Of a DNA stretch of 39,875 nt, positions 392-39,649 are shown in pieces. Location: positions 1-39,875 of the forward strand of contig SCPZ01000085.1 of the NCBI GenBank assembly GCA_004299305.1, read 5' to 3'. This stretch comes from Methylobacter sp. GTDB taxonomy: Bacteria; Pseudomonadota; Gammaproteobacteria; Methylococcales; Methylomonadaceae. The position numbers were made by a program, and so were the translations under genes. The notes beneath the pieces are model-generated. The model searched no databases. It had not been told where the DNA came from and saw only the letters and a list, made by a program, of their open reading frames with translations. Position 1 is the stretch's first letter; each line of letters begins with the position of its first letter.

Positions 392-934
392 TCACCCCAC
401 CTGTAGCACATCGGCAACCGAAGCCGAACCCGCCGTAGCCAAGGCCGCCATGTCATCCATCGACAGCACCTGCTGGATATTCAGGATGATCACAAACTTG
501 CCGTTAATCTTGCCCATACCGGCGATAAACTCGGCATGAATATGGGTGCCGAAGGTCGGGGGCGGTTCGATCTCGCTGGCTGGAATTTCCAGCACTGCGC
601 TCACCGCATCCACCATTACCCCGACATTCTGGGTTTCATCTCCTGTCGTTACCTCAATAATAATGATGCAGTTGCGCCGTCCTACCTCGGTGGGCTTCTT
701 GCCGAAACGCGCACTCAGGTCAATCACCGGCACCACCGCCCCCCGGAGGTTAATCACTCCACGGATGAAATCCGGCATCCTCGGCACTTCGGTCACTTGA
801 CCGTATTGAATGATCTCCTTGATGCGAACGATGCTGGCGGCATAGATTTCACCGCTCAACATAAAGGTCAGATATTGCTGTTGTTCCTCAAGCGCCTGGC
901 TGTCAGCCGTAGCCGATGCTGTGATTTCATGCAT
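392..934 (-). CDS. cheW: CheW-type chemotaxis coupling protein
   Basis: This is an adaptor that bridges receptor signalling tips and the CheA kinase P5 domain in the cytoplasmic array. One CheW domain covers nearly the whole 180-residue protein. It has the family core [16 protein letters not shown], including the Arg in N-L-R-G, and the closing GKFVIILNI strand. The ATG at 934 is chosen over an in-frame GTG at 940, because the GTG lies inside the AGGAGG ribosome-binding site and the paralogue at 33610 begins at the equivalent Met-His. The gene follows its receptor by nine bases on the minus strand, so both are very likely co-transcribed. It is close in sequence to the cheW at 33610 and far better conserved than the copy at 36592. 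Confidence 0.95.
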   Translation of the reverse strand: MHEITASATADSQALEEQQQYLTFMLSGEIYAASIVRIKEIIQYGQVTEVPRMPDFIRGVINLRGAVVPVIDLSARFGKKPTEVGRRNCIIIIEVTTGDETQNVGVMVDAVSAVLEIPASEIEPPPTFGTHIHAEFIAGMGKINGKFVIILNIQQVLSMDDMAALATAGSASVADVLQVG

Positions 935-939
935 AATCA

Positions 940-945
940 CCTCCT
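940..945 (-). promoter_or_regulatory. Shine-Dalgarno site of cheW overlapping the MCP stop region
   Basis: The minus strand reads TTTTAGGAGGTGATTATGCA: the receptor stop TAG runs directly into AGGAGG, five bases before the cheW ATG. The same TAGGAGG arrangement recurs at 33598, 36580 and 39647. This marks a duplicated junction and points to translational coupling of each receptor with its adaptor. Confidence 0.85.
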
Positions 946-2827
946 AAAACCTGACGAATTCGGCCTCGTTATACGTCGGTCTCGATGCCGCCGTTTTTCT
1001 AGCCGCAGGCTTAAACGGCGCGGCCTTGGACCTGGAAGACGCAGATACCGCACTATCGCCTACGCTAAAGAACTCCATCAGCTCCTGTAATTGCGCGGCT
1101 TGTCCGCTCATCTCTTCCGAGGTGGCGGCCAACTGTTCCGATGAGCTGGCGTTTTGCTGGGTGATTTTGTTCAACTGATCCATCGCAGTGTTGATTTGGC
1201 CGACGCCAGACGATTGCTCTTCCGAGGCCGCCGCGATTTCCTGCACCAGATCGGAGGTTTTCTTGATTGACGGCACGATAGTATCCAGCAGCTTACCGGC
1301 GCTTTCGGCCATCTCGACACTGCCGGAAGCCAGTTCGCCGATTTCCTGTGCGGCAACCTGGCTGCGCTCGGCCAGTTTACGCACTTCGGCGGCGACCACC
1401 GCAAAGCCCTTGCCGTGTTCACCGGCCCTGGCCGCTTCAATCGCCGCGTTCAGGGCCAGCAAGTTGGTTTGGTAGGCAATATCGTCGATAATGCCGATTT
1501 TTCCGGCAATGCTCTTCATCGCGGTCACAGTCTTTTTAACCGCTTCGCCGCCTTGCATCGCCTCGTTGCTGGCTTGGGCCGCCATGCCATCGGTAACTTT
1601 GGCGTTTTCGGTGTTTTGGTTGATCGACGCCGACATCTGTTCGACCGAAGCACTGGTTTCTTCCACCGATGCGGCTTGTTCGCTGGTGGCTTGCGACATG
1701 CTTTGCGCGGTCGAGGAAACTTCCTCGCTGGCCGAGGCGATATTGGCGGCCGCACCGTTCACTTCGCCGATCACTTGCGATAGTTTGGCGACGGTGTTAT
1801 TTAGGCTTTGTTTGACCTGGTCGAATGCCCCCTGATAGTCGCGGGTGACGGTCTGGGTCAAGTCGCCTTGCTCCAGAGCTTGCGATACTTGGATGGTGTC
1901 TTTGAAGGCGGTGTCGACAGTGTCGGATAGTTGGTTGAGCAGTTCGGACAGTTCCTTGGTGTAACCCGCTTTGCCGTTTAGCTCCATCTTGGTGCTGAAA
2001 TCGCCTTTGTTGGCAGCTGCAACGATGGTGGTGATTTCCGAGACGATCTTGGTGAGATTGGCCTGCATCACTTTCATGGCCGCCAGCAATTGGCCGGTTT
2101 CATCGGTGCTGGAAACCTGGATATTAGCTGTCAGGTCGCCTTCGGCAATTTTTTGGGCGGTATCCATGGCTATATTCAGCGGCAAGGTGATGGAGCGTGT
2201 CACCCAAAGGGCGATACCCACACCCATGACAATGGCTATCCCGCCCAAGCTGAACATCAGGTTGCGTGATGCGTTGTAAGCCTCCGCTGCATTCTTCGCA
2301 TCCTCTGCATTGTTCTCTGTCTGGCGCTGTAGGTTGTCATCCAAGGCTTCCTGCCATTTAGTCACCAGCGGCGCAGCCGTCCCCATCAGCAACTGTAGGG
2401 CTTCGGCATCTTTATCGGCAAACGCCAGTTCGATGACTTTGTTGTTCACATCACGGGCATTCTCGGCGGCATCGTCGACAGCTTTACGTAGCGCCCTGCC
2501 TTTTTCGCTGGCCGGGAATTTTTCCAGGTCTTCCCTGGCTTTGTTATAGGCGGCCCGCGCCTTATCCAGCTTGTCCTTTTCCACCTGCATGGCGGCTTTA
2601 TCATCCAGCAAAATTATGGTGCGTAAAATGCGTGACACGATATGGATGTTCTCGGACATGGTGTTGCTTAAGGCCATTTTGACGTTGTTCTCGTTAACGA
2701 TCTGATCCATCTTGTCATTCTGGGACGACATCCCGCTAATGCCGCTATAAATGATGCCGGTCATTAGCAGCAGCACTACACCGAAACCTAATCCGAGACG
2801 CATCCCGACTTTCATATTTTTAAACAT
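944..2827 (-). CDS. Methyl-accepting chemotaxis protein, 4HB sensor, one HAMP-pair unit
   Basis: This is a transmembrane chemoreceptor of 627 residues. A membrane segment (11-31) and a second (189-211) flank a helical periplasmic region of about 155 residues that fits the four-helix-bundle MCP sensor family. A HAMP domain follows (about 209-257). Next comes a 91-residue unit (258-348) made of two HAMP-like segments, with cores [16 protein letters not shown] and [16 protein letters not shown]. The signalling domain runs about 349-585 and its hairpin tip (about 448-484) has the universal [20 protein letters not shown]. The flexible tail ends E-A-E-F-V-R-F, matching the CheR-binding pentapeptide pattern. 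The ligand is unknown. It heads a minus-strand pair with cheW and closely resembles the receptor at 34699, which has the same length. Confidence 0.96.
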
Positions 2828-21869: not shown

Positions 21870-21871
21870 CC

Positions 21872-24800: not shown

Positions 24801-24994
24801 TAATGACTGTAACGGCAATTATGGCAGGACTTTTACCTATATTGTGGAGTACCGGCACAGGATCTGAAGTCATGCGCCGTATCGCCGCACCGATGGTTGG
24901 CGGCATGGTATCGTCAACGCTATTGACGCTTATAGTTATTCCGGCGCTTTATGCGCTGTGTAAACAATATTCCATCGGCAAACAATCCAGATAA
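21872..24994 (+). CDS. cusA: CusA-type heavy-metal RND transporter (Cu(I)/Ag(I))
   Basis: This is a proton-driven inner-membrane exporter for monovalent copper or silver. At 1040 residues it is close to E. coli CusA (1047). The fourth-helix signature is GGIAIAIGAMVDAAIVMIEN, the HME4 (CusA) form, unlike the divalent-metal CzcA form. The three Met residues that bind metal in E. coli CusA (573, 623, 672) have counterparts at M562, M612 and M661, each shifted by 11, in LLFMPQTLPG, APLEMSE and NRIDMLATGI. Twelve membrane segments and two large periplasmic loops follow the RND plan. It is the last gene of the efflux operon. No CusRS or CueR gene is in the window. Confidence 0.95.
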   Translation: MLNHIIAWSIRNVFLVLLATFSIVIGGIYALSQMPLDALPDLSDAQVIVYSEYPGQAPQVVEDQVTYPLTTAMLSVPRSKVVRGFSFFGASFVYVIFEDGTDIYWARSRVLEYLTTLTGSLPSSVKPKLGPDATGVGWVYQYALLAKDYSLAELRTLQDWFVRYQLTKAKGVAEIASIGGFVQQYQVTVDPHKLQAYGISLRSLSDTIRNGNRDVGGRVIELAETEYMVRGHGYLRGQTDLQGLVLKVDNGIPVLLRDVARVELVPDERRGITEWNGEGEAVSGIALARYGQNALEVISHVKDRLREITAGLPTGVSVQTVYDRSELIHRAIENLRHTLLEESVVVATVCVLFLLHLRSALVAILMLPVGVLIAFIIMQTLGMNSNIMSLGGIAIAIGAMVDAAIVMIENTHKHLERDADRLPRAEILLNACKEVGPPLFFSLLIITVSFLPVFALEAQEGRLFHPLAYTKTFAMAGAALLSVTLVPVLMSLFVRGKILPEQGNPINRVLIWVYRPVISWVMTYKKLTLALALLMLGASWYPASQLGGEFMPTLNEGTLLFMPQTLPGLSVTKAAELLQTQDRIIKGFPEVESVFGKAGRALTATDSAPLEMSETLVNLKPESAWRPGMTVDKLISEMDLALQIPGVSNAWTMPIKNRIDMLATGIRTPIGIKLFGKNLADMEGLAQQIEQAVLTVPGTTSAYAERVTGGFYLDIVPNYETLARYGLLVGDVQDIIATAVGGETVTTMVEGRERFAVIVRYPRELRDSPQAIAAHVLVPIPGGAVIPLGQLAQLSLNKGPPAIRTENALLSVYIYVDMRGRDIESYVQNAKQVVQQAVKFPAGYYIAWSGQFEYMERAKQRLQLVVPLTLCIIFILLYLNFGRLTETLIVMLSVPFALVGGIWLLWFLDYNVSVAVGVGFIALAGVAAETGVVMLIYLDQAFMEKQRQCLEEKRAFTVDDLYLALMIGAAERLRPKLMTVTAIMAGLLPILWSTGTGSEVMRRIAAPMVGGMVSSTLLTLIVIPALYALCKQYSIGKQSR

Positions 24995-25628: not shown

Positions 25629-27098
25629 ATGAAAGAACCGATGAGATTTTATCAAAATGATTATTGGCAGGCGTTTTCATTATTGGCGCCCGGTGGACTA
25701 GGTGCGTTAGGTATTGCACTGTTCAGTCGCTATTCAATGAGCGGATTGCTTATGGCGGTTGGTTTGATCGTCATGACTATCGGCTTGTATTTCTGGAGTC
25801 AAAATCGCTATCGAACATCCTTGCAGGCTTTCGAGCAGCATTTGACTGAAAGTCTGCAACAGGAAAATGAAGGCAAAATCAAAGCATTGCAGGCAGCACA
25901 ACATGAAAATGCCTTGACCTGCACCAAGCAATTTGAGGCAGAGCGAAAACATATCGAAATATTAATGGCTGATTTAGCACAACGTTTCGACAGCTTATCC
26001 TTACGTTTCGGAACCCAGGATCAACCTGTCGAGGCGGTGAAGCGTTCCGTCGAAACCCAGATTGCCGATTTAGCACGACGTTTCGAGGTCTTGAGCAAAC
26101 ATCTTGACGAGCAATCGACAGATGATGAAAAGCAAGAGCAGGGCATAGCCGGGCTGGACTCGCTATGCCAAAAAGTATTACCCATCTGGTCGAATCAAGT
26201 CGAAATGGCCAGGGTGCATACCGAAGAATCCATCGCGGATTTGGCGCAACGTTTCGATGCGCTGTCACAACGTCTCGATGCCGCTGTTTTAGCGTCTCAA
26301 AATACCTTGGAAGGCGACAAAGACTCACACGGCGGTATTGTTGAACTGTTACAGGATAGCCAATCCGAGTTGGGCTCTATCACCCAAGCACTGGGTTCCT
26401 CGCTGGAAGAAAAGGAAAAATTGCTGCGCTCAATTGAGGATTTGTCCAGCTTTACCGAGCAGTTAAGCAAAATGGCATGGGAAGTCAGCAGTATTGCCAG
26501 CCAGACTAACCTGTTGGCGCTGAACGCAGCCATTCAGGCTGCACGCGCCGGGGATGCCGGACACGGCTTTTCAGTGGTTGCCGATGAAGTGCGGAAATTG
26601 TCGCGTTCGTCAGGTGATATCGGTAGGAAAATTACTGAGACCATAGAATCTGTCAATGAGGCGATTGAAGACACGTTAATAATTTCCCGGAAATTTGCCT
26701 CACAAGATAAAGAAACGCTGGGTAATGCGGAACGCATTATTGCTGCGGTATTGAGGCATTTTACCCAAGCCGCTGCCGGATTGGTTGATTCAGAGGAACT
26801 GTTGCGTACAGAAAACAAAGCCATCAACAATGAAATATCCGATGTTTTTGTTGACTTGCAGTTTCAGGATCGGGTAAGCCAGATTCTGACCTTGGTCAGT
26901 GACGATTTGAACAAACTAGAACAGCATTTGAATGAGTTCAAACATAATGAACGCAGTGATGGATCATCCCGCTCGGTGAATGTAGAGCAATGGCTGGAAG
27001 AATTGACCCATAGTTACACCATGGAAGAGCAGCTTGCTGCACACGAGGGTGCGAAGACCGATATTAAGACTCATCAAAACAACATTACATTTTTCTGA
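25629..27098 (+). CDS. Membrane-anchored MCP-like transducer with coiled-coil repeats
   Basis: This 489-residue chemosensory transducer differs from the other receptors here. Two adjacent N-terminal membrane segments (about 14-32 and 38-56) leave almost no periplasmic loop, so it probably senses cytoplasmic or membrane signals. The coiled coil after them holds three copies of a 15-residue heptad-like repeat (113-127, 145-159, 202-216) on the pattern [14 protein letters not shown]. No HAMP domain is visible. A short signalling hairpin follows (about 270-345), with [18 protein letters not shown] and [10 protein letters not shown]. The C-terminal part contains [16 protein letters not shown] and lacks the pentapeptide tail of the other receptors. 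It begins a probable operon with the response regulator, STAS and CheA genes. Confidence 0.88.
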
Positions 27099-27109
27099 GG
27101 GCGCATAAC

Positions 27110-27478
27110 ATGGCAAAAACAATACTGTTTGTAGAAGACTCGGCTTCGGTCAGGCAGGTGATGAAAAGCACTTTGACCCGTGAGGGCTATGATGTAATTG
27201 TGGCTTGTGACGGACAGGATGCCATGAGCAAACTGGACGGTTGCAAAATACACCTGATCATCAGTGACGTAAACATGCCCAATATGGATGGTCTGACTTT
27301 TGTTAAGGCAGCCAAACAACTGCCTGCTTACAAATTTACCCCGATCATCATGCTGACCACCGAAACCCAACAAGAGAAAATGAATGAAGGCAAAGCAGCC
27401 GGTGTAAAGGCCTGGATAGTCAAACCCTTCCAGCCACCGCAATTACTGGCTGCGGTTTCGCAGCTTATCCAGGCATAA
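27110..27478 (+). CDS. cheY: Single-domain CheY-like response regulator
   Basis: This is a stand-alone receiver of 122 residues, expected to take phosphate from the CheA encoded two genes downstream. It has the acidic pocket E9-D10, phospho-acceptor D53 in ISDVNMPNMDG, T83/T84 and K105 in VKPF. There is no output domain, so it works by protein contact or as a phosphate sink. It starts 11 bases after the transducer gene with GAGGG as ribosome-binding site. Whether it controls flagella, pili or another output cannot be read from the window. Confidence 0.94.
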   Translation: MAKTILFVEDSASVRQVMKSTLTREGYDVIVACDGQDAMSKLDGCKIHLIISDVNMPNMDGLTFVKAAKQLPAYKFTPIIMLTTETQQEKMNEGKAAGVKAWIVKPFQPPQLLAAVSQLIQA

Positions 27479-27494
27479 ATGACGGGAGCAGCTA

Positions 27495-27818
27495 ATGGTA
27501 AACGTAAAAAATAAGAAACAGCCGGGCAGTCGCATCGTCATAGAGGGTGAGTTAACCATCTATACCGCCCTGGAGTTGAAAGATAAATTATTAACGGGTT
27601 TATCGGCGAATGAAGAACTGGAGTTGGATTTGTCCGAAGTGGGTGAAATCGATGGGGCCGGTTTACAGTTGCTGGTAATGATAAAACAGCAGGCGGCAAT
27701 TTTAGGCAAAGTCTTGCGAATTACCGGGCATAGCCCGGTGGTGGTGGAACTCCTGGATTTATCCGGCTTGTCCGGTTTTTTCGGTGACCCGCTGCTGATT
27801 GTTCGCAAGCCCACATAA
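27495..27818 (+). CDS. STAS-domain protein (anti-sigma-antagonist fold)
   Basis: This 107-residue single STAS domain is encoded between cheY and cheA. The core strand and helix ELDLSEVGEIDGAGLQLL fits the family, but the position of the phosphorylatable Ser in SpoIIAA (D-S-S-G) is G54 here (D-G-A-G). Regulation by a serine kinase is therefore unlikely. Such STAS proteins occur inside chemosensory operons, where their partner is generally unclear. It starts 16 bases after cheY and ends 14 bases before cheA. It could also belong to the MlaB-like group by fold, but no lipid-transport genes are near. Confidence 0.9.
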   Translation: MVNVKNKKQPGSRIVIEGELTIYTALELKDKLLTGLSANEELELDLSEVGEIDGAGLQLLVMIKQQAAILGKVLRITGHSPVVVELLDLSGLSGFFGDPLLIVRKPT

Positions 27819-27832
27819 GAAGGTAAATCGAC

Positions 27833-30022
27833 ATGATTCCAGACGAATATTTACAAACCTTTGTTGTCGAATGCAGGGAATTGCTCGAACAAATGGAAGA
27901 GGCCCTGTTAAGCGTAGAGCAGGCCGCAGAAGACCCTGAAATTATCAACGCCATCTTTCGGGCCGCCCATACCATCAAAGGTTCAGCCGGTATGTTCGGT
28001 ATCGACCCTATCGTGGCATTTACTCATGCCGCCGAAAGCGTTCTGGACCGGGTGCGTAGCGGCGAGATAGTCATGAGCCCTGAATTGGCGGCATTATTTA
28101 TCGCAGCGCACGACCATTTAAGCGTATTGATCAATCTCGTTGCCGAAGGCAGTGAGTCAAACAGTGACATCGACAGTAACGGTAAAAGTTTAATTGCGCA
28201 GTTGGAAACCTACCTGGGCGAAACCGTGGCGGAGCAAGCTGAAAGCTCGGGCGAAGTGCCATCAGTCCATCAGTCCAAGCTGGAGCGTGAACAAAGCGAT
28301 ATGGTTGGAACCGATCATTGGCATATATCCTTGCGTTTTGGCCCGGAGGTGTTCAGGAACGGCATGGACCCCTTTTCCTTCGTGCGTTGTCTGTCTTCCC
28401 TGGGCAGCATCGTGCAACTGGTGACCCTCATTGATGCGATTCCCGCCGCCGAACAAATGGACCCGGAAACCTGCTATCTGGGGTTTGAAATCAGCTTTAG
28501 CAGTGATGCCGATAAGCTCGCCATTGAGAGCATCTTTAATTTTGTACGTAGCGACTGCTTAATCCGTATCCTGCCGCCGCACAGCAAAGCCTCCGAATAC
28601 CAACGCCTGATTCGGGAATTGCCGGAGCAAGAAATGCGCTTGGGCGAAATCCTGATCAAGTGCGGCACCTTAACGCAGGAAGAATTGGAAAATATCCTAT
28701 ACCTTCAATCGGAACGCAAAGATGAACAGCAACAGCTTATCGGCGAAGTCCTGGTCGAACAACAGCTGGTTAGTCAGCCGGTGGTGGAAGCTGCACTGGA
28801 AAAACAAAAACAGGTTAAAGAAAACAAAAAAACCGAAGCCAGCCTGATCCGAGTCGATGCAGAAAAACTCGACGACCTGATCAACCTGGTCGGCGAACTG
28901 ATTATCGCCGGAGCCGGAACCAACCTGATCGCCCGACGCGCCAAAATGGCGGATCTTATCGAATCCACCGCCATCTTGTCGCGGCTGGTCGAAGAAGTCC
29001 GCGATTCAGCGCTGGCGTTGCGCATGGTGCCGATCGGCGGAACCTTCAATCGCTTCCAGCGTGTGGTGCATGATGTCAGCAAGGAATTGGGCAAAGAGAT
29101 TGATTTGGTTATCAGCGGCGCGGACACCGAACTTGATAAGACTGTTGTCGAAAAAATCGGCGACCCGCTGACCCATTTGGTGCGCAACGCGATGGATCAC
29201 GGCATAGAGCCTGCCGAGCTGCGTATTGCTCGCGGCAAACCGGTCAAAGGCACGCTCAAGCTCAACGCTTATCATGCCGCCGGCAGCATTGTCATCGAAG
29301 TCAGCGACGATGGCGGCGGCTTAAACAAAGAAAAAATCCTAAGCAAAGCCATAGAACGCGGCCTGATTACCGCAGGTACAAGCCTAAGCGACAAAGAAAT
29401 TTATAACTTGATCTTCGAACCCGGGTTCTCTACCGCTGAAGCAGTCAGCAACTTGTCCGGTCGCGGCGTCGGCATGGATGTGGTGCGTCGCAACATCCAG
29501 GCCTTAAGGGGTTCAATCGACCTGGATAGCGTAGAAGGCCAAGGCAGCACCATTCGTATTCGTCTGCCGCTAACCCTCGCTATTATCGATGGCTTCATGG
29601 TGGGCGTCGGCAACGCCGCTTATGTCATACCGCTGGATATGGTGGTCGAATGTGTCGAATTAAGGGCATGGGTCGGCGACGGGGGGGATGGGCAATACCT
29701 GAACCTGCGCGGCGAAGTACTGCCGTATCGACGCTTGCGCGACCATTTTGAGGTGGAAGGCGACACAGCACAACGCGAGAATGTCGTGGTAGTGCGCTAT
29801 GGCGAGCATAAGGCAGGATTGGTCGTTGACAAATTGATGGGTGAATTCCAGACCGTGATCAAACCGCTGGGCAAGTTGTTTAAAGGCGAAAAGAGCATCG
29901 GTGGCTTTACCATACTGGGCAGCGGCGAGGTCGCGTTGATTGTGGATGTACCGGGCTTGATGGCCCAGGTAGAACACGAAAGAGTGGAGAACGAGATGGC
30001 GCTTGCTGCGACATCAAAATAG
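27833..30022 (+). CDS. cheA: CheA histidine kinase with an MshEN-like insert
   Basis: This is the central kinase of the chemosensory array and should phosphorylate the adjacent CheY. Its 729 residues form an HPt domain with phospho-acceptor H46 in AAHTIKGSAGMFG, then a P2-like region around HISLRFGPEVFRNGMDP. An unusual stretch follows (269-325). It has two 24-residue motifs; the first, starting R269-L-G and ending at Q292, fits the cyclic-di-GMP-binding MshEN pattern, and the second is weaker. Next come the dimerisation helices (about 337-400), the ATP-binding domain with H448-L-V-R-N452, D492 in SDDGGG and GRGVGMDVV, and a C-terminal CheW-like P5 domain. It follows the STAS gene by 14 bases. 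Confidence 0.96.
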   Translation: MIPDEYLQTFVVECRELLEQMEEALLSVEQAAEDPEIINAIFRAAHTIKGSAGMFGIDPIVAFTHAAESVLDRVRSGEIVMSPELAALFIAAHDHLSVLINLVAEGSESNSDIDSNGKSLIAQLETYLGETVAEQAESSGEVPSVHQSKLEREQSDMVGTDHWHISLRFGPEVFRNGMDPFSFVRCLSSLGSIVQLVTLIDAIPAAEQMDPETCYLGFEISFSSDADKLAIESIFNFVRSDCLIRILPPHSKASEYQRLIRELPEQEMRLGEILIKCGTLTQEELENILYLQSERKDEQQQLIGEVLVEQQLVSQPVVEAALEKQKQVKENKKTEASLIRVDAEKLDDLINLVGELIIAGAGTNLIARRAKMADLIESTAILSRLVEEVRDSALALRMVPIGGTFNRFQRVVHDVSKELGKEIDLVISGADTELDKTVVEKIGDPLTHLVRNAMDHGIEPAELRIARGKPVKGTLKLNAYHAAGSIVIEVSDDGGGLNKEKILSKAIERGLITAGTSLSDKEIYNLIFEPGFSTAEAVSNLSGRGVGMDVVRRNIQALRGSIDLDSVEGQGSTIRIRLPLTLAIIDGFMVGVGNAAYVIPLDMVVECVELRAWVGDGGDGQYLNLRGEVLPYRRLRDHFEVEGDTAQRENVVVVRYGEHKAGLVVDKLMGEFQTVIKPLGKLFKGEKSIGGFTILGSGEVALIVDVPGLMAQVEHERVENEMALAATSK
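28637..28807 (+). other. Segment of cheA encoding the tandem MshEN-like motifs
   Basis: Motif one (residues 269-292) has R1, L2, G3, G10, L17, L21 and Q24, all the key positions of the MshEN half-motif. Motif two (302-325) keeps G3, L21 and Q24 but has Leu in place of R1, Gln in place of G10 and Val in place of L17. The linker is nine residues. In MshE and related ATPases this tandem module binds cyclic di-GMP; binding here is unproven. Confidence 0.6.
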
Positions 30023-30075
30023 TGAATAGATATGTGGGGCTTCCAATTTAGAGTGAGACGATTTTCGGGGCTGCT

Positions 30076-30104
30076 CTTGTTCCCACGCGGCGCGTGGGAA
30101 CAAG
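30076..30104. repeat. Perfect 13-bp hairpin CTTGTTCCCACGC / GCGTGGGAACAAG
   Basis: The arms at 30076-30088 and 30092-30104 are exact complements around the loop GGC. It sits 54 bases past the cheA stop. There is no T-tract, so it may stabilise the cheA mRNA 3' end or simply be a palindromic repeat. The word GTTCCCACGCG also begins the dispersed repeat at 39683. Confidence 0.7.
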
Positions 30105-30290
30105 GTAAAACGTTAGTAACGAGACTGCAAACCCCGTTCCGCTTGGAGGATCAAAATAGTAGGTAGGCGTGTAGGGCTTTCAATTTAAACGGGACGATTT
30201 TACAGATAACATCTTTTTAAGGAATGTTACCTGTTCCGGCTTAAGTTGGCAGCCAAAAAGAGAAAAAGCATGCGCAGCGTATCTACAGGG

Positions 30291-30317
30291 TTGGGCAACG
30301 GTGAGGTCGCGTTAATT
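30291..30317 (+). pseudogene. Relic of a cheA 3' end in a receptor leader
   Basis: These 27 bases match 29915-29941 inside cheA at 23 positions, and three of the four differences are silent. They translate as L-G-N-G-E-V-A-L-I against L-G-S-G-E-V-A-L-I in the CheA P5 domain. The frame continues for several residues toward the receptor start. A second copy lies at 34637-34663. Confidence 0.6.
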
Positions 30318-30351
30318 ATGCTGGTGAAATCAATCAATAAGGGGAATGGAA

Positions 30352-33300
30352 ATGTTTAAAAATATGAAAGTCGGGATGCGTCTCGGATTAGGTTTTTGTG
30401 TGGTGCTATTGCTAATGATCTGCATAATTTATAGCGGCATTAGCGGCATTAGCGGAATGGCGGCTCAGAATGACAGGATGGCGGAGATTGTTAATGAGAA
30501 CATCGTTAAAACCACGTTAAGTAATGCGATGTCCGAAAATATCTACATCGTTTCGCTCGCTCTACGTAACATTATTTTGATAACAGACGAAGCCGGCATG
30601 CAGGCGGAAATGGAAAAGCTGAATAAGGCCAGAGCCGCCTATAACAAAGCCAGGGAAGATTTGGAAAAGTTTCCGGTCAGCGAAAAAGGCAGGACAATCC
30701 GAAACAAAATCGACGCGGCCCTCGAAGCTGCTCGTGAAGCGAACAACAAGGTTATTGATCTGGGGAGAGCCAACAAAAATGCTGAGGCCACCGATGTTCT
30801 GCTGACTAGGGCTGCACCGCTGGTAGTCAAAGTGCAAGAAGCCCTTAATGAAAACCTGGAGCTTCAGGCGGAGAACAATAGCGAGGATGCCAAGACAGCA
30901 ATGGAAGCGTATAACGCGGCACGCAGCCTGATGTTTATTCTGGGCGGGATAGCACTGATCATGGGAGTGGGTATCGCCTTTTGGGTAACTCGCTCCATCA
31001 CGCTACCGTTGCTTATAGCGATGGATGTCGCCAAAAAAATTGCCGCAGGCGACCTGACATCCAACATTCAGGTTACCAGCAGCGATGAAACCGGCCAGTT
31101 ACTGGCCGAGATGAAAAACATGAGCGGCACGTTACATAAGCTGGTGTCCGAAATGAATCACATGTCGAGCGAGCACGACAAGGGTGACATCGACATCAAG
31201 ATTGAGGAAAGCAAATTCGAGGGCGCATTTAAGGAAATGGCCGAAGGCATCAATAATATGGTGTTCGGCCACATTGCCGTGAAGAAAAAAGCCATGGCCT
31301 GCATCAAGGAATTCGGCGAGGGTAACTTCGATGCCCCGTTGGAAAAATTTCCCGGTAAAAAAGCCTTCATTAACGAAACCATCGAGCAGGTGCGGACTAA
31401 TCTCAAGGGCTTAATCGCTGAGATTAACCACATGTCAGCGGAACACGACAAGGGTGATATCGACATCAAGATTGACGAGAGCAAATTTAAGAACGATTTT
31501 GCGCTGATGGCTACAGGCGTGAATAACATGGTGTTCGGCCATATCGCCGTGAAGAAAAAAGCCATGGCCTGCATCAAGGAGTTCGGCGAAGGCAACCTGA
31601 ACGCCCCGCTGGAAAAATTCCCCGGCAAGAAAGTGTTTATCAACGAAACCATTGAGCAGTTGCGCAGCAATCTTAAGCAGATCGTCGGGGAAATCCAGCA
31701 GATCGTCGCTGCCGCCAATAAGGGCGACTTCAGTATCAAGATAGATATGAACGGCAAGGCGGGCTTTACCAAGGAACTGTCCGAGTTGCTCAACCAACTG
31801 TCCGACACCGTCGATACCGCTTTCGATGACACCATCCGCGTGGCGAAAGCCTTGGCGCAAGGCGACCTGAGTCAGAAAGTCACCCGCGACTATCAGGGGG
31901 CTTTCAACGAAGTCAAGCAAAGCGTTAACACCACCGCCGACTCCCTAACCGGCATTGTCGCGGAGATCAAGAGCATCGTCGCCGCCGCCAACAAAGGTGA
32001 TTTCAGCACCAAGATGAACTTGAACGGCAAGGCGGGCTACACCAAGGAGCTATCCGAACTGCTCAACCAATTGTCCGACACCGTCGATACCGCCTTCGAG
32101 GACACCATCCGCGTGGCGAAAGCCTTGGCGCAAGGCGACCTGAGCCAGAAAGTCACCCGCGACTATCAGGGCGCTTACAACGAAGTCAAACAAAGCGTCA
32201 ACACCACCGCCGACTCCCTGACCGGCATCGTCGCGGAGATCAAGAGCATCGTCGCCGCCGCCAACAAAGGCGATTTCAGCACCAAGATGAACTTGAACGG
32301 CAAGGCGGGCTACACCAAGGAACTGTCCGAACTGCTCAATCAACTGTCCGACACCGTCGATACCGCCTTCGGGGACACCATCCGCGTGGCAAAAGCCTTG
32401 GCGCAAGGCGACCTGAGCCAGAAAGTCACCCGCGACTATCAGGGAGCTTACAACGAAGTCAAACAAAGCGTCAACACCACCGCCGACTCCCTGACCGGCA
32501 TTGTCGCGGAAATCAAGGACATCGTCGCCGCCGCCAACAAAGGCGATTTCAGCATCAAAATGGACCTGAGCGGCAAAGCGGGTTACACCAAGGAACTGTC
32601 CGAACTGCTCAACCAACTATCCAACACCGTCGATACCGCTTTCAAGGATACCATCCACGTGGCTCAGGCCCTGGAGCAAGGCGATTTGACACAGAAAGTC
32701 ACCCGCGATTATCAGGGGGCATTCGATCAAGTCAAGCAAAGCCTTAATAACACCGTCGCCAAGCTGTCGCAAGTTATCAGCGAAGTGAATAGCGCGGCTT
32801 CCAACATCGCATCGGCCAGTGAGGAAGTGTCCGCCACGGCGCAGAGCATGTCGCAAGCCACCAGCGAACAAGCCGCATCAGTGGAGGAAACCAGCGCCTC
32901 CGTCGAACAGATGTCGGCGTCGATCAACCAGAACACTGAAAATGCCAAGGTCACCGACGGCATGGCTACCCAAGCCAGCGGCGAGGCAGCGCAAGGCGGT
33001 GAAGCGGTTAAAAAGACCGTGAGCGCAATGAAGAGCATTGCCAATAAAATCGGCATCATCGACGATATTGCTTATCAAACCAACCTGTTGGCTTTGAACG
33101 CGGCGATTGAAGCCGCCCGAGCAGGAGAACACGGCAAAGGTTTTGCTGTGGTCGCCGCCGAAGTGCGCAAACTGGCTGAACGTAGCCAAGTTGCTGCACA
33201 GGAAATCGGCGAACTCGCCTCGGATAGTGTCGAAATGGCGGAAACCGCAGGCAAGCTGTTGGATACCATCGTGCCCTCAATCAAGAAAACCGCCGATCTG

Positions 33301-33600
33301 GTGCAGGAAATCGCGGCGGCTTCAGAAGAGCAATCGTCCGGTGTGAGCCAAATTAATTCCGCTATGGGCCAGCTTAACCAGATCACCCAACAGAATGCCA
33401 GTTCATCGGAAGAGTTGGCCGCCACCTCGGAAGAGATGAGCGGACAGGCCGAGCAGTTGCAGGATCTGATGAGCTTCTTTAGCGTGGCCGATAGAGGGCA
33501 TACGGTATCGGCTCCCAAGGTCAAACTTTCCAAATCGGCTTCTAAAAAAGCGGGATCGGCCAAACAGGCCTTTGATGATAGCGAATTCGTAAAATTCTAG
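30352..33600 (+). CDS. Large methyl-accepting chemotaxis protein with a poly-HAMP array
   Basis: This 1082-residue chemoreceptor is nearly twice the size of its relatives. The second ATG (30352) is chosen because it aligns with the MFKNMKVGM start of the paralogues and has a better ribosome-binding spacing than the ATG at 30346. Membrane segments near 11-34 and 191-214 flank a four-helix-bundle-like sensor, followed by a HAMP domain. Then come two 90-residue units (261-350, 351-440) with [15 protein letters not shown], and four 91-residue units (441-531, 532-622, 623-713, 714-804), each holding two HAMP-like segments. The signalling domain (about 805-1040) is nearly identical to those of the neighbouring receptors. 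The tail ends D-S-E-F-V-K-F. The array would place the signalling tip much farther from the membrane unless it folds back. Confidence 0.96.
31132..31671 (+). repeat. Two 270-bp tandem units (variant HAMP pairs)
   Basis: Units begin at 31132 and 31402. Each encodes 90 residues with [31 protein letters not shown] and [10 protein letters not shown]. They are found only in this receptor within the window. Confidence 0.9.
31672..32763 (+). repeat. Four 273-bp tandem units encoding HAMP pairs
   Basis: Units begin at 31672, 31945, 32218 and 32491, exactly 273 bases apart. Each encodes [42 protein letters not shown] or close variants. The middle units are nearly identical at DNA level, so recombination could add or remove copies. 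The fourth shifts toward the [13 protein letters not shown] form that precedes the signalling domain in all four receptors. Confidence 0.95.
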
Positions 33601-33609
33601 GAGGCGGTC

Positions 33610-34140
33610 ATGCATGCAATCACAGCAGCTGTTCAGGAGTCGGAAGAAGCGCAGCAATATCTTACCTTTATGTTGAGCGGTAAGACCTATGCGGTAAGCA
33701 TAAGCCGTATCAAGGAGATTATTCAATACGGGCAAGTGACCGAAGTGCCGCGAATGCCGGATTTCATTCGCGGCGTGATTAACCTTCGGGGGGCCGTGGT
33801 GCCGGTGATCGACCTGGGCGTCCGTTTCGGCAAGCCGCCCACAGTGGAAGGGCGACGCAACTGCATCATTATTATTGAAGTGGAAATAGGAGGAGAAACC
33901 CAGAATGTCGGGGTGATGGTGGATGCGGTGAATGCAGTGTTGGAGATTCCAGCCGACGAGATCGAACCTGCGCCGACCTTCGGCGCCAATATCCATGCTG
34001 AGTTTATCGCCGGTATGGGCAAGGTCAACGGTAAGTTTGTGATCATCCTGAATATTCAGCATGTGCTGTCGACGGATGACATGGCTGCGCTGGCGGTGGT
34101 GGGTTCTGCATTACATGCCGATGTGGTGCAGGCTGAGTGA
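33610..34140 (+). CDS. cheW: CheW-type chemotaxis coupling protein
   Basis: This 176-residue single CheW domain couples the preceding receptor to CheA. It has the intact core [16 protein letters not shown] and closing GKFVIILNIQHVL. It starts nine bases after the receptor stop, with the Shine-Dalgarno AGGAGG overlapping that stop, the same junction as in the minus-strand cassette. It is the best candidate for the working adaptor of the main cluster, since the next copy (36592) has lost conserved residues and the last one (39659) is truncated. No further domain is present. Confidence 0.95.
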   Translation: MHAITAAVQESEEAQQYLTFMLSGKTYAVSISRIKEIIQYGQVTEVPRMPDFIRGVINLRGAVVPVIDLGVRFGKPPTVEGRRNCIIIIEVEIGGETQNVGVMVDAVNAVLEIPADEIEPAPTFGANIHAEFIAGMGKVNGKFVIILNIQHVLSTDDMAALAVVGSALHADVVQAE

Positions 34141-34179
34141 TGAGGCGTGGCATATAGCGGGACGATTTTACAGATAACC

Positions 34180-34254
34180 GGGAACGCCGAGCCCCAGCCA
34201 GATCGGCAATGTTGATAATTGCAGACACTCGCCAAGCAGGGGCTTGGCGTTCCC
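34180..34254. repeat. Inverted repeat with 16-bp arms
   Basis: GGGAACGCCGAGCCCC (34180-34195) pairs with GGGGCTTGGCGTTCCC (34239-34254) at 15 of 16 positions across a 43-base spacer. It follows the cheW stop by about 40 bases. Confidence 0.65.
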
Positions 34255-34360
34255 AGCCACCCACTTAAGACCAGTCTGAGGTTAAGCCTAGCAACTTGTT
34301 CCGTATTAAACGGAAAGCAAAAAAACTTATAGGTCAGGTTAGCGTACCTAGACAGGTTTT

Positions 34361-34440
34361 CTCGTTTCCACGCGCCATGCTCATCGTTATACACAAGTGT
34401 TTACGAGACACCGTCATCCTGGCAATTTCTGCCGGGATGA
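34361..34440 (+). repeat. Dispersed intergenic repeat copy
   Basis: It shares CTCGTTTCCACGCGC, TGCTCATCGTTATACACAAG and CGTCATCC...GCCGGGATGACG with the copies at 39683 and, inverted, at 151-277. Confidence 0.7.
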
Positions 34441-34456
34441 CGACTCTGGGAGTTTT

Positions 34457-34517
34457 CGCTAGTTCCCCTAAGCTCCAGCTTCCAACGAATTTCCAAGCTG
34501 GAGCTTGGGAACTAGCG
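34457..34517. repeat. Inverted repeat CGCTAGTTCCC...GGGAACTAGCG
   Basis: The left arm (from 34457) and right arm (to 34517) pair over about 25 bases with small gaps. Both contain the word AGCTCCAGCTT or its complement. Related words occur at 250-270 and in the hairpin at 37151-37180. Confidence 0.65.
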
Positions 34518-34636
34518 CAATTATATGAACCATCGGAACTTTCGACAGCATAAGCTGTCGGATTAGGCCTCCGTTGTTGAAAATCATATACAGGCGTGCG
34601 GTAGTGACTTACGCAATCCAGTTACCCCGATCAGGG

Positions 34637-34663
34637 CTTGGCAACGGTGAGGCTACGTTAATT
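34637..34663 (+). pseudogene. Second relic of a cheA 3' end in a receptor leader
   Basis: This is homologous to 30291-30317 and to cheA 29915-29941. It reads L-G-N-G-E-A-T-L-I in frame. The shared stretch continues through ATCAATAAGGGGAAT to the receptor start, so the whole leader was duplicated with the receptor. Confidence 0.55.
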
Positions 34664-34698
34664 ACGCTGGTGATATTAATCAATAAGGGGAATAAAAA

Positions 34699-36582
34699 AT
34701 GTTTAAAAATATGAAAGTCGGGATGCGTTTAGGATTAGGTTTTTGTGTGGTGCTATTGTTGATGATCGGCATAATTTACAGCGCCGTTAACGGCATGTCG
34801 GCTCAGGATGATAAGCTCGATGAGATCGTTAATCAGAACATCTATAAAACCGCGTTAAGCAATACGATGTCCGAGAATGTCCACATTGTTACGCGCATTA
34901 TGCGTACCATAGTTTTGTTAGATGATCGCGCCGCCATGCAGGCGGAAAAGGAGAAACTGGATAAGGCGCGAGCCGCCTATAACAAGGCCAGGGAAGATCT
35001 GGATAAGACCCCGGCCAGTGAAAGAGGCAAGGCCATCCGTAAAGCTATCGATGAAGCCGCTACGAATGGCCGTGATGCGAACAACAAAGTCATCGAACTG
35101 GCGTTTGCCGATAAAGATGCGGAAGCCTTGCAGTTGTTGATGAGTACGGCTGCGCCGCTGGTGGATAAATGGCAGGAAGCCCTTAATGACAATCTGGAAC
35201 TTCAGGCAGAGAACAACAGCGAGGATGCCAAAGCGGCAACGGAAGCTTACAACGCGTCACGCACCCTGATGTTCACCTTGGGCGGGATAGCTCTGATCAT
35301 GGGGGTGGGTATCGCCTTCTGGGTGACGCGCTCCATCACACTGCCGCTGAGCATGGCTATGGATGTCGCCAAAAAAATCGCCGCAGGCGACCTGACGACG
35401 AAGATCGAAGCGACTTCTATTGATGAGACGGGGCAATTGCTGGCCGCCATGAAAGTAATGCAAGATGGCCTGACCGGCATCGTCGCGGAAATCAAGAACC
35501 TCGTCGCATCCGCGAACAAAGGCGATTTCAGCGCCAAAATGAACCTGAACGGCAAGGCGGGCTACACCAAGGAATTGTCCGAATTGCTTAATCAACTGTC
35601 CGACACCGTCGATACCGCTTTCCAGGACACCATTCAAGTGGCTCAGGCTCTGGAGCAAGGCGACTTGACGCAGACAGTCACCCGCAACTATCAGGGGGCG
35701 TTTGATCAAGTCAAGCAAAGTCTCAATAACACTGTCGCCAAGCTGTCGCAAGTCATCAGCGAAGTGAATGGCGCTGCTACCAATATCGCATCGGCCAGTG
35801 AGGAGGTAAGTTCCACTGCGCAGAGTATGAGTCAGGCAACCAGCGAGCAGGCGGCTAGCGTGGAAGAAACCAGCGCCTCTGTCGAACAGATGTCGGCGTC
35901 TATCAACCAGAACACTGAAAACGCCAAAGTCACTGACGGTATGGCTACCCAGGCCAGCAGCGATGCGGCTCAAGGCGGTGAAGCAGTTAAAAAGACTGTG
36001 AGCGCGATGAAGAGTATTGCAGGCAAAATCGGCATCATTGATGACATTGCTTACCAAACCAACCTGTTAGCTTTGAACGCGGCGATTGAAGCGGCCCGAG
36101 CCGGCGAGCACGGTAAGGGCTTTGCTGTGGTCGCCGCCGAAGTGCGCAAACTGGCTGAACGTAGCCAAGTCGCCGCACAGGAAATCGGTGAACTCGCCTC
36201 CGATAGTGTCGAGATGGCGGAAAGCGCTGGCAAACTGTTGGATACCATCGTGCCTTCAATCAAGAAAACCGCCGATTTGGTGCAGGAAATTTCGGCGGCC
36301 TCTGAAGAGCAATCAGCAGGCGTAGCTCAAATCAATACCGCTATGGGGCAGCTTAACCAGATCACCCAGCAAAATGCCAGTTCGTCGGAACAGTTGGCCG
36401 CCACCTCGGAAGAGATGAGCGGACAGGCAGAGCAGTTGCAGGAACTCATGGGCTTCTTTACTGTGGTCAACAGTACCCGTAAGGTATCGGGGACTCCCAA
36501 GGCTACACCTTCCAAACCTGCTTCTAGAAAAACGGCGGCAGCAAAACGGGGATTTGATGATGGCGAATTCGTAAAATTCTAG
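34699..36582 (+). CDS. Methyl-accepting chemotaxis protein, 4HB sensor, one HAMP-pair unit
   Basis: This is a 627-residue chemoreceptor, the same length as the minus-strand receptor at 944-2827 and similar throughout. Membrane segments near 11-31 and 189-211 flank a helical periplasmic sensor of about 155 residues whose sequence has diverged most. A HAMP domain and one 91-residue HAMP-pair unit (258-348) follow. The signalling domain has [20 protein letters not shown] at the tip. The tail ends D-G-E-F-V-K-F, fitting the CheR-tether pattern. Its leader ATCAATAAGGGGAATAAAAA is shared with the receptor at 30352. It is followed after nine bases by the decayed cheW. Confidence 0.96.
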
Positions 36583-36591
36583 GAGGCGGTC

Positions 36592-37167
36592 ATGCATGCA
36601 ATCACACCTGCTGCGCAGACGTTATCGGCAGCTATTCAGGAGCAGGAAGAACTTACCTTTATGTCGAGCGGGAAAAACTATGTCACAAGTATCAGCCGCA
36701 TTCAATATGCTCAAGTGGCCGAAGTGCCGCAGCTGCCTGGTTTTATTTGCGGCGTGATTAACTTGGGCGGAGCCGTGGTGCCGGTGATTGATTTGAGCGT
36801 GTGTTTTGGCAAACCATCTGTAGGGCGGCGTAACTGCATCATCATTGAAGTGGCAATAGAGGAAGAGACTCATAGTGTCAGGGTGATGGTCGACGCGGTG
36901 CTGGAGATTCCAGGCAGTGAGATTGAACCGGTTTCCAGCTTCGGCGCCAACTTTATTGGCGGAATAGGCGAGAGCAATGGCAAGTTTTTGATGGTCTTTA
37001 ATATTCATCAGCTGTTATCGATGGATGATATGGAGGTCTTGACTATGGTGGGATCTGCTTCGATTGCCGAACTGATGGCGGTCGGGGCGATAAATATTAG
37101 ATTGGAACAGGCTGTAGAGTGCGCACTGCGCACCTTTTTAGGCTTTTGCACAGGTTCCCAAGTTTGA
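36592..37167 (+). CDS. Degenerate CheW-like protein
   Basis: This is a paralogue of the cheW at 33610, with clear signs of decay or divergence over its 191 residues. Several short in-frame deletions have removed residues: the K-E-I-I stretch after SRI, three residues before G-R-R-N-C, two in the D-A-V-L-E-I-P strand, and the IHAE of the ANIHAEFI loop. The conserved Arg of N-L-R-G is now Gly ([14 protein letters not shown]). About 20 extra C-terminal residues (ending [10 protein letters not shown]) run into a palindromic repeat, and the stop codon lies in its loop. The frame is still open and the ribosome-binding site intact, so a protein may be made. Binding to CheA or receptors is doubtful. 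Confidence 0.8.
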
Positions 37168-37180
37168 GCTTGGAAACCTG
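37151..37180 (+). repeat. Hairpin overlapping the stop of the degenerate cheW
   Basis: CAGGTTCCCAAG (37151-37162) pairs with CTTGGAAACCTG (37169-37180) at 11 of 12 positions around TTTGAG. The gene's TGA is at 37165-37167 within the loop. The T-rich run TTATTTTTC follows ten bases later, so partial termination is possible. The sequence belongs to the same family as the inverted repeat at 34457-34517. Confidence 0.65.
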
Positions 37181-37219
37181 CATGAATTGTTATTTTTCAT
37201 TTATCAGGGAGTAAATACT

Positions 37220-39649
37220 ATGAAAATGACCATCGTTAGAAAAATGATCCTGTTGGTGGCTTTTGCTATTTTGGGTATGGTTGGGCAGGTCTGGCTTGGA
37301 CAAAACAGGATGAATGCGGTATATGAAAAAACCAATTTCGCTAATGTCAACAGTGTTCCGGCTATTGTCGATCTGTATAAGGCCAATGCGTTGTTCGGTC
37401 ATTTACGTGTTCGTCCATACCGCCATGTACTGGCTACCGATATGGCCGAGATGGCGAAAATAGAAACTACTATCAAGGTAGGACGGGAAGACGTTCTCAA
37501 TGCATTGAAGGAATATGAAAGCACCATTGTGGACGACAAAGACAAGCATCTAACAGAGGAAGATTACGCTGCTTTTAATGCCTATTTTGATGGACTGGAC
37601 AAAGCATTGGAGCTTTCCCGTCAAAACAAGAAGGAGCAGGCTCGTGATTTGCTGGTGCAAACCAGGCCACTGGATCAAAGGGCGTATGCCGCGTTTGATG
37701 CCCACCTGGAATATAACATTGAACTGGCGAAGAAGGGATCCGGCGAAGCTATCGCTGCTAAAAACCATGCGAACCTCATGTCTACCATTATCGTGGTTAT
37801 CGATTTGTTGGCGACTGCGCTGCTGGGTTGGTTTATTACTCATAACCTGAAGCGTCAACTAGGCGGCGAGCCGGATGCGGCTGCCTATATTGCCAACAAA
37901 ATTGCAGCGGGTGACCTAAGCAGCAAGATCGAGATCAAATCCGGCGACACGATCAGCCTGTTCTACTCCATGAAGACGATGCAGGACAATCTAAGTATGA
38001 TTGTCGAGGAAATTAAGAGCATCGTCGGAGCCGCCAACAAAGGCGACTTCAGCGTCAAAATAGACCTGAGCGGTAAAGCGGGTTACAGCAAGGAACTGTC
38101 CGAGCTGCTCAATCAACTGTCCGACACCGTCGATACCGCCTTTGGGGACACCATTCGCGTAGCAAAAGCTTTAGCGCAAGGCGATCTGAGCCAGAAAGTC
38201 ACCCGCGACTATCAGGGGGCTTTCAACGAAGTCAAACAAAGCGTCAACACCACCGCCGACTCCCTGACCGGCATTGTTGCGGAAATCAAGAGCATCGTCG
38301 CTGCCGCCAACAAGGGCGATTTCAGCGCCAAGATGAACCTGAACGGCAAGGCGGGCTACACCAAAGAGCTGTCCGAACTGCTCAACCAACTGTCCGACAC
38401 CGTCGATACCGCCTTTGGGGACACCATTCGCGTAGCAAAAGCTTTAGCGCAAGGCGACCTGAGCCAGAAAGTCACCCGCGACTATCAGGGCGCTTACAAC
38501 GAAGTCAAACAAAGCGTCAACACCACAGCCGACTCCCTGACCGGCATTGTTGCGGAAATCAAGGGCATTGTCGCTGCCGCCAACAAGGGCGATTTCAGCG
38601 CCAAAATGAACCTGAACGGCAAGGCGGGTTACACCAAGGAGCTGGCCGAACTGCTTAACCAACTGTCCGACACCGTCGATACCGCCTTCAAGGACACCAT
38701 TCATGTGGCTCAGGCTCTGGAGCAAGGCGATTTGACCCGGACAGTCACCCGCGACTATCAAGGGGCCTTCGATCAAGTCAAGCAGAGTCTCAATAACACC
38801 GTAGCCAAGCTGTCGCAAGTCATCAGCGAAGTGAACAGCGCTGCCGCCAACATTGCCGGGGCCAGCGAAGAAGTCAGCTCCACCGCCCAAAGTATGAGTC
38901 AGGCAACCAGTGAGCAGGCCGCCAGCGTCGAGGAAACCAGCGCTTCGGTCGAACAGATGGGGGCCTCCATCAATCAGAATACTGAAAACGCCAAAGTCAC
39001 CGACGCTATGGCCGCCCAAGCCAGCAGCGAGGCGGCGCAAGGCGGTGACGCCGTTAAAAAGACCGTGAGCGCGATGAAGAGCATAGCCGGTAAAATCGGC
39101 ATCATCGACGATATTGCTTATCAAACCAACTTATTGGCTTTGAACGCGGCGATTGAAGCCGCCCGAGCAGGCGAACACGGTAAGGGTTTTGCTGTGGTTG
39201 CCGCCGAAGTGCGTAAGCTGGCTGAACGTAGTCAGGTCGCCGCACAGGAAATCGGCGAACTCGCCTCCGGCAGTGTCGAGATGGCGGAAAGCGCAGGTAA
39301 GCTACTGGATACCATTGTGCCTTCTATCAAGAAAACGTCCGACTTAGTACAGGAAATTGCAGCGGCCTCTGAAGAACAGTCGGCAGGCGCAGGCCAAATC
39401 AATACCGCGATGGATCAGCTCAACCGGATTACCCAGCAAAATGCCAGTTCGTCGGAACAGTTGGCCGCTACTTCGGAAGAGATGAGCGGACAGGCAGCCC
39501 AACTGCAAGAGTTGATGGCGTTTTTTACCGTGGACATGGCCTCGGGTGCAGCGTCGGCGGTATCCAAAACTAGGGCTTTCAAACCTGCGGGTCAAAGAGC
39601 GGTGGCGGCAAAACATGCGCCTCACGATGCTGAGTTTGTGAAATTTTAG
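37220..39649 (+). CDS. Methyl-accepting chemotaxis protein with three HAMP-pair units
   Basis: This is an 809-residue chemoreceptor. The ATG at 37220, behind GGGAG with an eight-base gap, is preferred over an upstream TTG at 37187. Its sensor differs from those of the other receptors: membrane segments near 8-26 and 187-208 flank a four-helix-bundle-like domain with [17 protein letters not shown] typical [24 protein letters not shown] entry follows. Three 91-residue HAMP-pair units (258-348, 349-439, 440-530) are nearly identical in DNA to those of the large receptor. The signalling domain (about 531-770) matches its paralogues, and the tail ends D-A-E-F-V-K-F. The sharp change from unique sensor to shared rear half suggests domain shuffling or gene conversion. 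Confidence 0.96.
37991..38809 (+). repeat. Three 273-bp tandem units encoding HAMP pairs
   Basis: Units begin at 37991, 38264 and 38537, exactly 273 bases apart. They share long stretches of identical DNA with the units at 31672-32763 and with the single units in the other two receptors. The last unit again has the [13 protein letters not shown] form next to the signalling domain. Confidence 0.95.

Follow-up and report, generated by a model that had tools for sequence, protein, structure and literature searches.

HAMP-pair units of variable number in chemoreceptor stalks of Methylobacter sp. and related bacteria

A chemosensory cluster of Methylobacter sp. encodes receptors of similar plan that carry different numbers of one tandemly repeated unit, a pair of HAMP domains, ahead of the signalling domain. 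How this number changes, and what it does for the receptor, is the question raised by the locus. It was addressed on a stretch of 39,875 nucleotides, called here the window, which is one contig (SCPZ01000085.1, C104) of the 144-contig draft genome GCA_004299305.1 with a size of 4.49 Mb. The number of pairs in comparable receptors of related bacteria was found to range from 0 to 12, for the most part by whole steps of 91 residues. The explanation considered somewhat probable is that of an evolvable tandem poly-HAMP stalk, shaped by gain, loss and homogenisation of units, the number of which would set the distance from the membrane to the baseplate and so sort receptors into arrays.

HAMP-pair units in the four receptors

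Four genes in the window encode receptors with a methyl-accepting chemotaxis protein (MCP) signalling domain, designated A to D:

30352..33600, plus strand: receptor A, 1082 aa; four-helix-bundle (4HB) sensor, canonical HAMP, two N90 pairs, four U91 pairs, MCP signalling domain
37220..39649, plus strand: receptor B, 809 aa from ATG; sensor half divergent but likewise assigned to 4HB by Pfam; three pairs
34699..36582, plus strand: receptor C, 627 aa; one pair
944..2827, minus strand: receptor D, 627 aa; one pair

The open reading frame of B starts at a TTG codon at 37187, with no ATG before 37220, and the best-scoring named relatives of this receptor are mostly from Methylobacter and other Methylococcales. 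Pfam detects the sensor domain 4HB_MCP_1 in all four receptors, which have two hydrophobic segments apiece, as well as the MCP signalling domain PF00015 (E values from 1.8e-35 to 1.2e-39). The sensor halves of A, C and D are alike (182-200 identical positions over 255-258 aligned columns), while that of B is divergent from them (63-72 identical positions over 263-264 columns). From the last unit onward the four proteins align without gaps over 327 residues. The best stretch of the signalling domain in A comprises 264 residues versus 278 in Tsr, and fits the 34H class by length alone (no class model), the criterion being a signalling domain two heptads below that of the 36H receptor Tsr. Neither PAS (Pfam, at E 1) nor HisKA or HATPase domains were found in the four receptors, for A among the 25 of 30 matching families listed.

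The repeated elements of the stalks are as follows:

30982..31137, plus strand: first (canonical) HAMP of A
31144..31413, plus strand: N90 pair 1, HAMP_N3 type
31414..31683, plus strand: N90 pair 2, its final codon overlapping A1 as cut
31681..31953, plus strand: U91 unit A1
31954..32226, plus strand: U91 unit A2
32227..32499, plus strand: U91 unit A3, 96.7% identical to A2
32500..32772, plus strand: U91 unit A4, terminal class
35479..35751, plus strand: U91 unit C1, terminal class
38000..38272, plus strand: U91 unit B1
38273..38545, plus strand: U91 unit B2
38546..38818, plus strand: U91 unit B3, terminal class
1775..2047, minus strand: U91 unit D1, terminal class

The 91-residue unit (U91) thus occurs in exact 273-bp register four times in A (31681-32772), three times in B (38000-38818) and once each in C (35479-35751) and D (1775-2047, minus strand). 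Tandem Repeats Finder reported arrays with a period of 273 at 31702-32742 and 38000-38781. An earlier reading of this DNA made from the sequence only had given the same register and the same copy numbers for the receptors at 30352, 37220, 34699 and 944, and both are confirmed. It had overlooked the two 90-residue pairs of the Pfam HAMP_N3 type (31144-31683) that precede the U91 units of A, so that this stalk contains six pairs in addition to its first canonical HAMP.

The composition of the unit, which had been described as two HAMP-like segments, is borne out by Pfam HAMP_2 stretches and by sequence matches to the poly-HAMP structures of Aer2. A model of the four-unit part of A (pLDDT 74.6, pTM 0.40) shows a helix of about 31 residues and a connector of about 14 residues, twice per unit. 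With moderate model confidence, each unit is predicted to consist of two HAMP folds connected by uninterrupted helices; no distances were taken from this monomer model, given its pTM of 0.40.

The closest known system is Aer2 of Pseudomonas aeruginosa (PDB 3LNR, 4I3M, 3VOL), which likewise has concatenated HAMPs ahead of an MCP signalling domain. Receptor A matches 3vol and 3lnr by sequence (2e-16 to 5e-16), and the three best Foldseek matches of the four-unit model are Aer2 poly-HAMPs, at E values of 0.005-0.023 (none below 0.001). However, Aer2 is a soluble protein with a haem PAS domain and five HAMPs, according to the available part of PMC3570549, whereas the window receptors are transmembrane 4HB proteins with 3 to 13 HAMPs, partly near-repeats. 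Since no PAS was found in them and membrane segments are present, they are not Aer2. Repeats of about 90 residues consisting of HAMP pairs also occur in fungal group III hybrid histidine kinases; CaNik1p is described as containing nine HAMPs, namely four 92-residue pairs and one more, an odd total (PMC3848655, in the part available). The output of these proteins is a histidine kinase, unlike the MCPsignal output of the window receptors, and that part of the CaNik1p text is silent on variable copy number and on repeat dynamics at the DNA level.

The sequence-only reading regarded the units as nearly identical in DNA and suggested computing their pairwise identities. Over the 36 pairs of units these range from 75.5% to 96.7%, with synonymous divergence (dS) from 0.14 to 1.04. 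Near-identity holds for A2 and A3, separated by 8 silent and 1 replacement differences, and less so for either of them versus B2 (93-94%); for the remaining 33 pairs identity is 75.5-91.2% and dS 0.30-1.04. Two classes can be distinguished, the units adjacent to the signalling domain (A4, B3, C1, D1) and the internal ones, which are 75-82% identical across classes. On the tree, the internal units from the window and those from genome G131, belonging to another genus, form one clade (support 100/99), within which each species has a group of its own (97/92 for the window, 91/84 for G131). The internal unit type is therefore probably older than the split of the genera, while within each species internal units resemble one another more than those of the other species: dS among internal units of the window is 0.14-0.63, versus 0.55-1.42 to those of G131. 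Over all classes, dS between window units and units of another genus is 0.55-2.08, and the values of 0.3-1.0 prevailing in the window overlap this range.

The protein tree joins A1 with B1 (80/87), but by silent distances A1 is nearer to A2 and A3 (0.46 and 0.38) than to B1 (0.63). Positional orthology of A1 with B1, A2/A3 with B2 and A4 with B3 was rejected because of this conflict, and the history appears mixed. A permutation test for runs of identity was positive for B1 and B2 (P 0.024, one of 10 pairs) and for the last unit plus signalling domain of A and D (P 0.002, one of 6 pairs), lending weak support to gene conversion inside the window.

Stalk length in related genomes

Relatives were compared using one genome per species, with the orthologous CheA (75-87% identical) as the anchor for reading adjoining receptors. 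Among genomes with 82-87% identical cheA, the membrane receptor located at CheA or one gene from it has 1 pair in G014, G021, G052 and one of two in G001, 4 pairs in G007 and G019, and 5 in G022, versus 6 in the window; relatives with a receptor lacking a predicted membrane segment at this slot were left uncounted. Receptors with a B-like sensor half (38-67% identical) show a similar spread: 0 pairs in G210; 1 in G021, G052, G001, G207 and on contig C130 of the same Methylobacter genome; 2 in G001 and G217; 3 in the window; 4 in G019 and G061; and 5 in G022 and G128. In the Methylomonas-like genomes (g16) arrays extend up to 12 pairs, which would amount to 25 HAMPs. Fixed unit numbers in relatives, the outcome that the sequence-only reading had set against itself, were thus not found, as the number varies both at the cheA slot and within one sensor family. 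Its view that paralogues differ in array length by means of near-identical units agrees with this variation between species, and does not agree with the silent divergence in the window.

A census of all fetched loci, restricted to receptors with a recognised first HAMP and a signalling domain (66 distinct receptors without a recognised first HAMP were excluded), found 146 of 156 distinct receptors to deviate from a multiple of 91 by at most 6 residues. Of those on step, 41 are at zero; above zero, 105 of 114 are on step. An earlier set of 133 rows had given 108 of 115 distinct receptors on step, or 105 of 112 after strict removal of cut copies. Arrays of 5, 6, 7, 8, 9, 10 and 12 pairs have lengths of 454, 545, 636, 727-728, 818, 909 and 1091 residues. 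One of the ten off-step rows is explained by a mis-called start (L259), and Pfam found PAS in 4 of the 7 off-step receptors scanned first. PAS was also found in a later case, L149 (788 aa), in which it lies between the HAMPs. Receptor length seems to evolve in steps of whole blocks.

Draft genomes are often broken at or near the receptor slot (L143/L144, L164, L165, L167, L178, L181, L182), and may under-report such arrays. In G131 the array next to cheA is split across the ends of contigs C42 and C16 (L143 and L144), with one full unit on one and four on the other. A broken receptor paralogue was observed in the Methylobacter genome itself (L152, contig C68, about 270-1700): its sensor half, 69% like that of D, is followed by one unit, a loss of frame and a partial second unit in another frame, and no signalling domain was found in the 1.5 kb read. 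It is apparently a decaying member of the receptor family.

Homogenised units and matched counts

In arrays of at least 3 pairs, the nearest relative of each unit was sought among its own array and the units of other genomes, over 60 chosen loci. It belonged to the same array for 91 of 175 middle units, 15 of 58 first units and none of 58 last units; in 17 of 58 arrays this applied to every middle unit. Adjacent middle units are 96-99% identical in G022, G052 and G061, and in G102, G107, G109 and G118 the true repeat comprises two pairs (546 bp), with lag-2 identity of 95-100% over most middle steps. Such a contrast of middle and edges would be expected from repeated unequal exchange with conserved edges.

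Homogenisation also extends across genes. Seven Methylomonas-like genomes contain two paralogues whose signalling-domain DNA shows 93-100% identity within the genome, versus 82-96% between species (counting only between-genome pairs with well-aligning sensor halves), and 39 of 54 aligned units are at least 95% identical, although the sensors differ. These sequences plainly show that neighbouring receptors in sister genomes have undergone gene conversion or some equivalent exchange, so that the gene conversion among units which the sequence-only reading had proposed to look for is seen there and only weakly in the window.

Neighbouring receptors with different sensors often contain equal numbers of pairs, and the number differs between species: 12 and 12 in G102, 6 and 6 in G104, 5 and 5 in G105, 10 and 10 in G109, and 8 and 8 in both G126 and G127. 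The signalling domains in these six genomes are 94.6-100% identical and 36 of 49 units at least 95% identical; in G105 only 2 of 5 units were recently shared. In 5 of the 6 the arrays of the paired receptors begin with one or two units of different type (15-20% identical residues), and yet the totals are equal. Other Methylomonas-like counts are 8, 5 and 1 in G122, 8 and 1 in G113, and 7 and 1 in G112.

Matching was tested by shuffling over the 60 chosen loci, from which soluble receptors (no predicted membrane segment) and loci without a usable receptor dropped out. Among Methylomonas-like clusters containing two or more membrane receptors, 7 of 12 are matched versus 0.80 expected (P at the floor of 5e-5), and 6 of 11 versus 0.67 when G127 is omitted. 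The first result has the cut receptor of G131 as 6 pairs, this genome having initially been entered as matched (2, 2, 2). In the Rhodocyclaceae-like family of G237, 8 of 10 clusters are matched versus 3.54 expected (P 0.0015). In these counts a third receptor of G389 located elsewhere is left out, and the 0.35 pairs of L162 probably reflect a mis-called membrane segment. In G309 and G357 arrays of 2 pairs match, with signalling domains 88% and 77% identical and units 53-68% identical.

Several results weigh against an evolvable stalk whose unit number sets receptor height. Matching in the genus of the window is at the level of chance (2 of 5 clusters versus 1.05 expected, P 0.27), and the window itself is unmatched with 6, 3, 1 and 1 pairs. 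When recently converted clusters (signalling domains at least 95% identical) are dropped, 3 of 5 Rhodocyclaceae-like clusters (P 0.10) and 3 of 6 Methylomonas-like clusters (P 0.006) remain matched; among the latter three, G131 is to be discounted, as a further receptor with at least 5 pairs is cut at a contig end, and G127 at 94.6% is just below the limit. Gene conversion, rather than selection on height, could therefore have produced the matching as a by-product. The species of one genus do not count as independent cases, and the shuffles ignore phylogeny except for the run without G127. In addition, 84 of 175 middle units are nearest to a unit of another genome, so many arrays would be old and stable. 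Off-step lengths occur without a detected PAS in 3 of the 7 receptors first scanned, in two receptors of L274 (1075 and 988 aa) and in L273 (1375 aa). Height matching as a general rule was rejected, since it does not hold in the genus of the window and may elsewhere depend on recent conversion. The L273 receptor (2841-6965, G128) has an array of 806 residues that misses the 91-residue step by 13 residues, no PAS having been found.

The chemosensory cluster and possible roles of the unit number

Receptors A, C and B belong to a cluster at 25629-39649 with the gene order MCP-signal protein, CheY-like, STAS, CheA, A, CheW, C, CheW, B, the place after B lying beyond the contig end; receptor D and its own CheW are at the opposite end of the contig on the minus strand. 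The remaining genes are:

25629..27098, plus strand: MCP-signal protein, no HAMP by Pfam; upstream of CheA in many relatives too
27110..27478, plus strand: CheY-like receiver
27495..27818, plus strand: STAS-domain protein
27833..30022, plus strand: CheA (Hpt, dimerisation, ATPase and CheW domains), the synteny anchor
33610..34140, plus strand: CheW after A
36592..37167, plus strand: CheW after C
392..940, minus strand: CheW after D

The CheW encoded after D is 80% identical to that after A and 58% identical to that after C. A CheY-like gene is located upstream of CheA in many relatives, and a STAS gene separates the two in the window as well as in G015 (L165); the short open reading frames of other relatives were not listed. 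The system may act on more than the flagellar motor. Ahead of the cluster, what looks like an operon for tripartite efflux lies at 19085-24994; as labelled from the translations, it encodes an outer membrane factor, a membrane fusion protein in which the motif YRHPM recurs, and an RND pump.

An evolvable stalk could work as follows. The repeat unit being two concatenated HAMPs, gain or loss of a whole unit would keep the reading frame, and with 91 residues equal to 13 x 7 it would also keep the coiled-coil phase. Whole-unit steps would leave an odd number of HAMPs below the membrane, and could thereby preserve signal polarity. In Aer2 the conformers of HAMP1 and HAMP2 signal oppositely and alternate (PMC3570549, in the part available); because neighbouring HAMPs adopt opposite conformers, two-HAMP steps would keep the sign of the signal. 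Unequal exchange and gene conversion, acting both inside an array and from one neighbouring gene to the other, may add, remove and homogenise middle units, whereas the unit adjacent to the signalling domain would be held constant. For the window in particular, recombination is the putative mechanism.

The unit number would most likely set the distance from the membrane to the baseplate. According to the available parts of the respective sources, a HAMP is 35 A long (PMC6628036), by which one unit would add several nanometres; receptors must be of one length class to form an array together, 14 residues (about 2 nm) being enough to segregate them (PMC6759762); and in gammaproteobacteria, including Methylomicrobium, the membrane-to-baseplate distance of 24-40 nm follows receptor architecture, the F8 system of M. 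alcaliphilum having a 34H receptor with two transmembrane segments (PMC7184735). Taken together, these data suggest that unit number could set array height and that equal numbers could let different sensors share one array, while receptors with unequal numbers would be kept apart. As in the known heptad classes, receptor length would decide which array is joined (PMC6759762, in the part available), but those classes are set by the length of the signalling domain, whereas here the HAMP array varies and the signalling domains align without gaps. For the window three height classes are predicted (6, 3 and 1 pairs), and the presence of a CheW gene after each of A, C and D would suit separate arrays. 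The more specific version, in which unit number is an adjustable ruler of array height, neighbours are kept equal by gene conversion of the stalk, height changes in 13-heptad steps and the Methylobacter genome holds several height-separated arrays, is tentative and falls a little short of an even chance.

Alternatively, additional HAMP pairs may tune the gain, threshold or damping of the signal on its way from sensor to kinase, with height being incidental. This agrees with the relay of conformational signals by HAMPs and their alternating sign in Aer2 (PMC3570549), and with the altered response of CaNik1p upon deletion of HAMP pairs (PMC3848655), as far as these sources are available. Tuning is nevertheless rather unlikely, since it alone does not predict that receptors with differing sensors share a number within a genome while that number changes from genome to genome. 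It is unlikely, too, that the number is functionless, recombination expanding, contracting and homogenising the repeats within the limits of frame and coiled-coil phase. Matching is strongest in recently converted paralogues and weak otherwise, and absent beyond chance in the genus of the window, as such neutral change would have it, but the arrays of G309 and G357, few as such cases are, match despite diverged signalling domains and units.

Whole-unit variation, a homogenised middle, diverged edges and, in some relatives, 546-bp higher-order repeats are features shared with variable tandem-repeat proteins. A further idea is that of a contingency locus, in which the number would change often enough for length polymorphism, similar to phase variation, within one population. 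The sequence-only reading had favoured this idea. The repeats of G102, G107, G109 and G118 speak for it, as do adjacent units 97-99% identical in G061 and G052, and congeners with 94% identical signalling-domain DNA differ by two units (6 in G104, 8 in G126 and G127). Frequent change is quite improbable all the same: repeats reach up to 100% identity in relatives, but window units are 75-97% identical with high silent divergence and exact direct repeats of at most 80 bp (54 bp between A2 and A3), and G126 and G127, with signalling domains 96% identical, are equal in number. The unit in question, unlike that of other variable tandem-repeat proteins, is a signal-relaying domain pair in a receptor stalk, and its variation (0 to 12 pairs) is known here between species.

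Mis-assembly of the repeat number is very improbable, even though the window belongs to a 144-contig draft and several draft relatives break near the receptor slot, because the longest arrays come mostly from genomes of 1-5 contigs (G112 and G113 being drafts). For the numbers in the window assembly collapse was rejected, as no exact direct repeat exceeds 80 bp; any two units differ at 9 or more of their 273 bases, so that they can be told apart with ordinary short reads.

Chains of HAMPs and HAMP pairs of 92 residues are already known from Aer2 and CaNik1p, and long poly-HAMP arrays were reportedly described by Dunin-Horkawicz and Lupas in 2010. Among the matches listed from an open-licence library, titles and abstract openings describe neither a variable number of HAMP pairs nor gene conversion of receptor stalks; as far as these show, whole-unit length variation, homogenisation of stalks between neighbours and matched counts are new.

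The evolvable stalk presents a natural length series: receptors alike in other respects have from 0 to 12 pairs, with few departures from whole pairs and often with equal numbers in neighbours. This series makes it possible to test HAMP number against the sign of the signal, and stalk length against sorting into arrays. Concerted evolution of stalk and tip, while sensors differ, would be a modular way to add new senses to one array. If the ruler holds true, a lineage could change the height of its arrays by gain or loss of units, in exact steps of 13 heptads.

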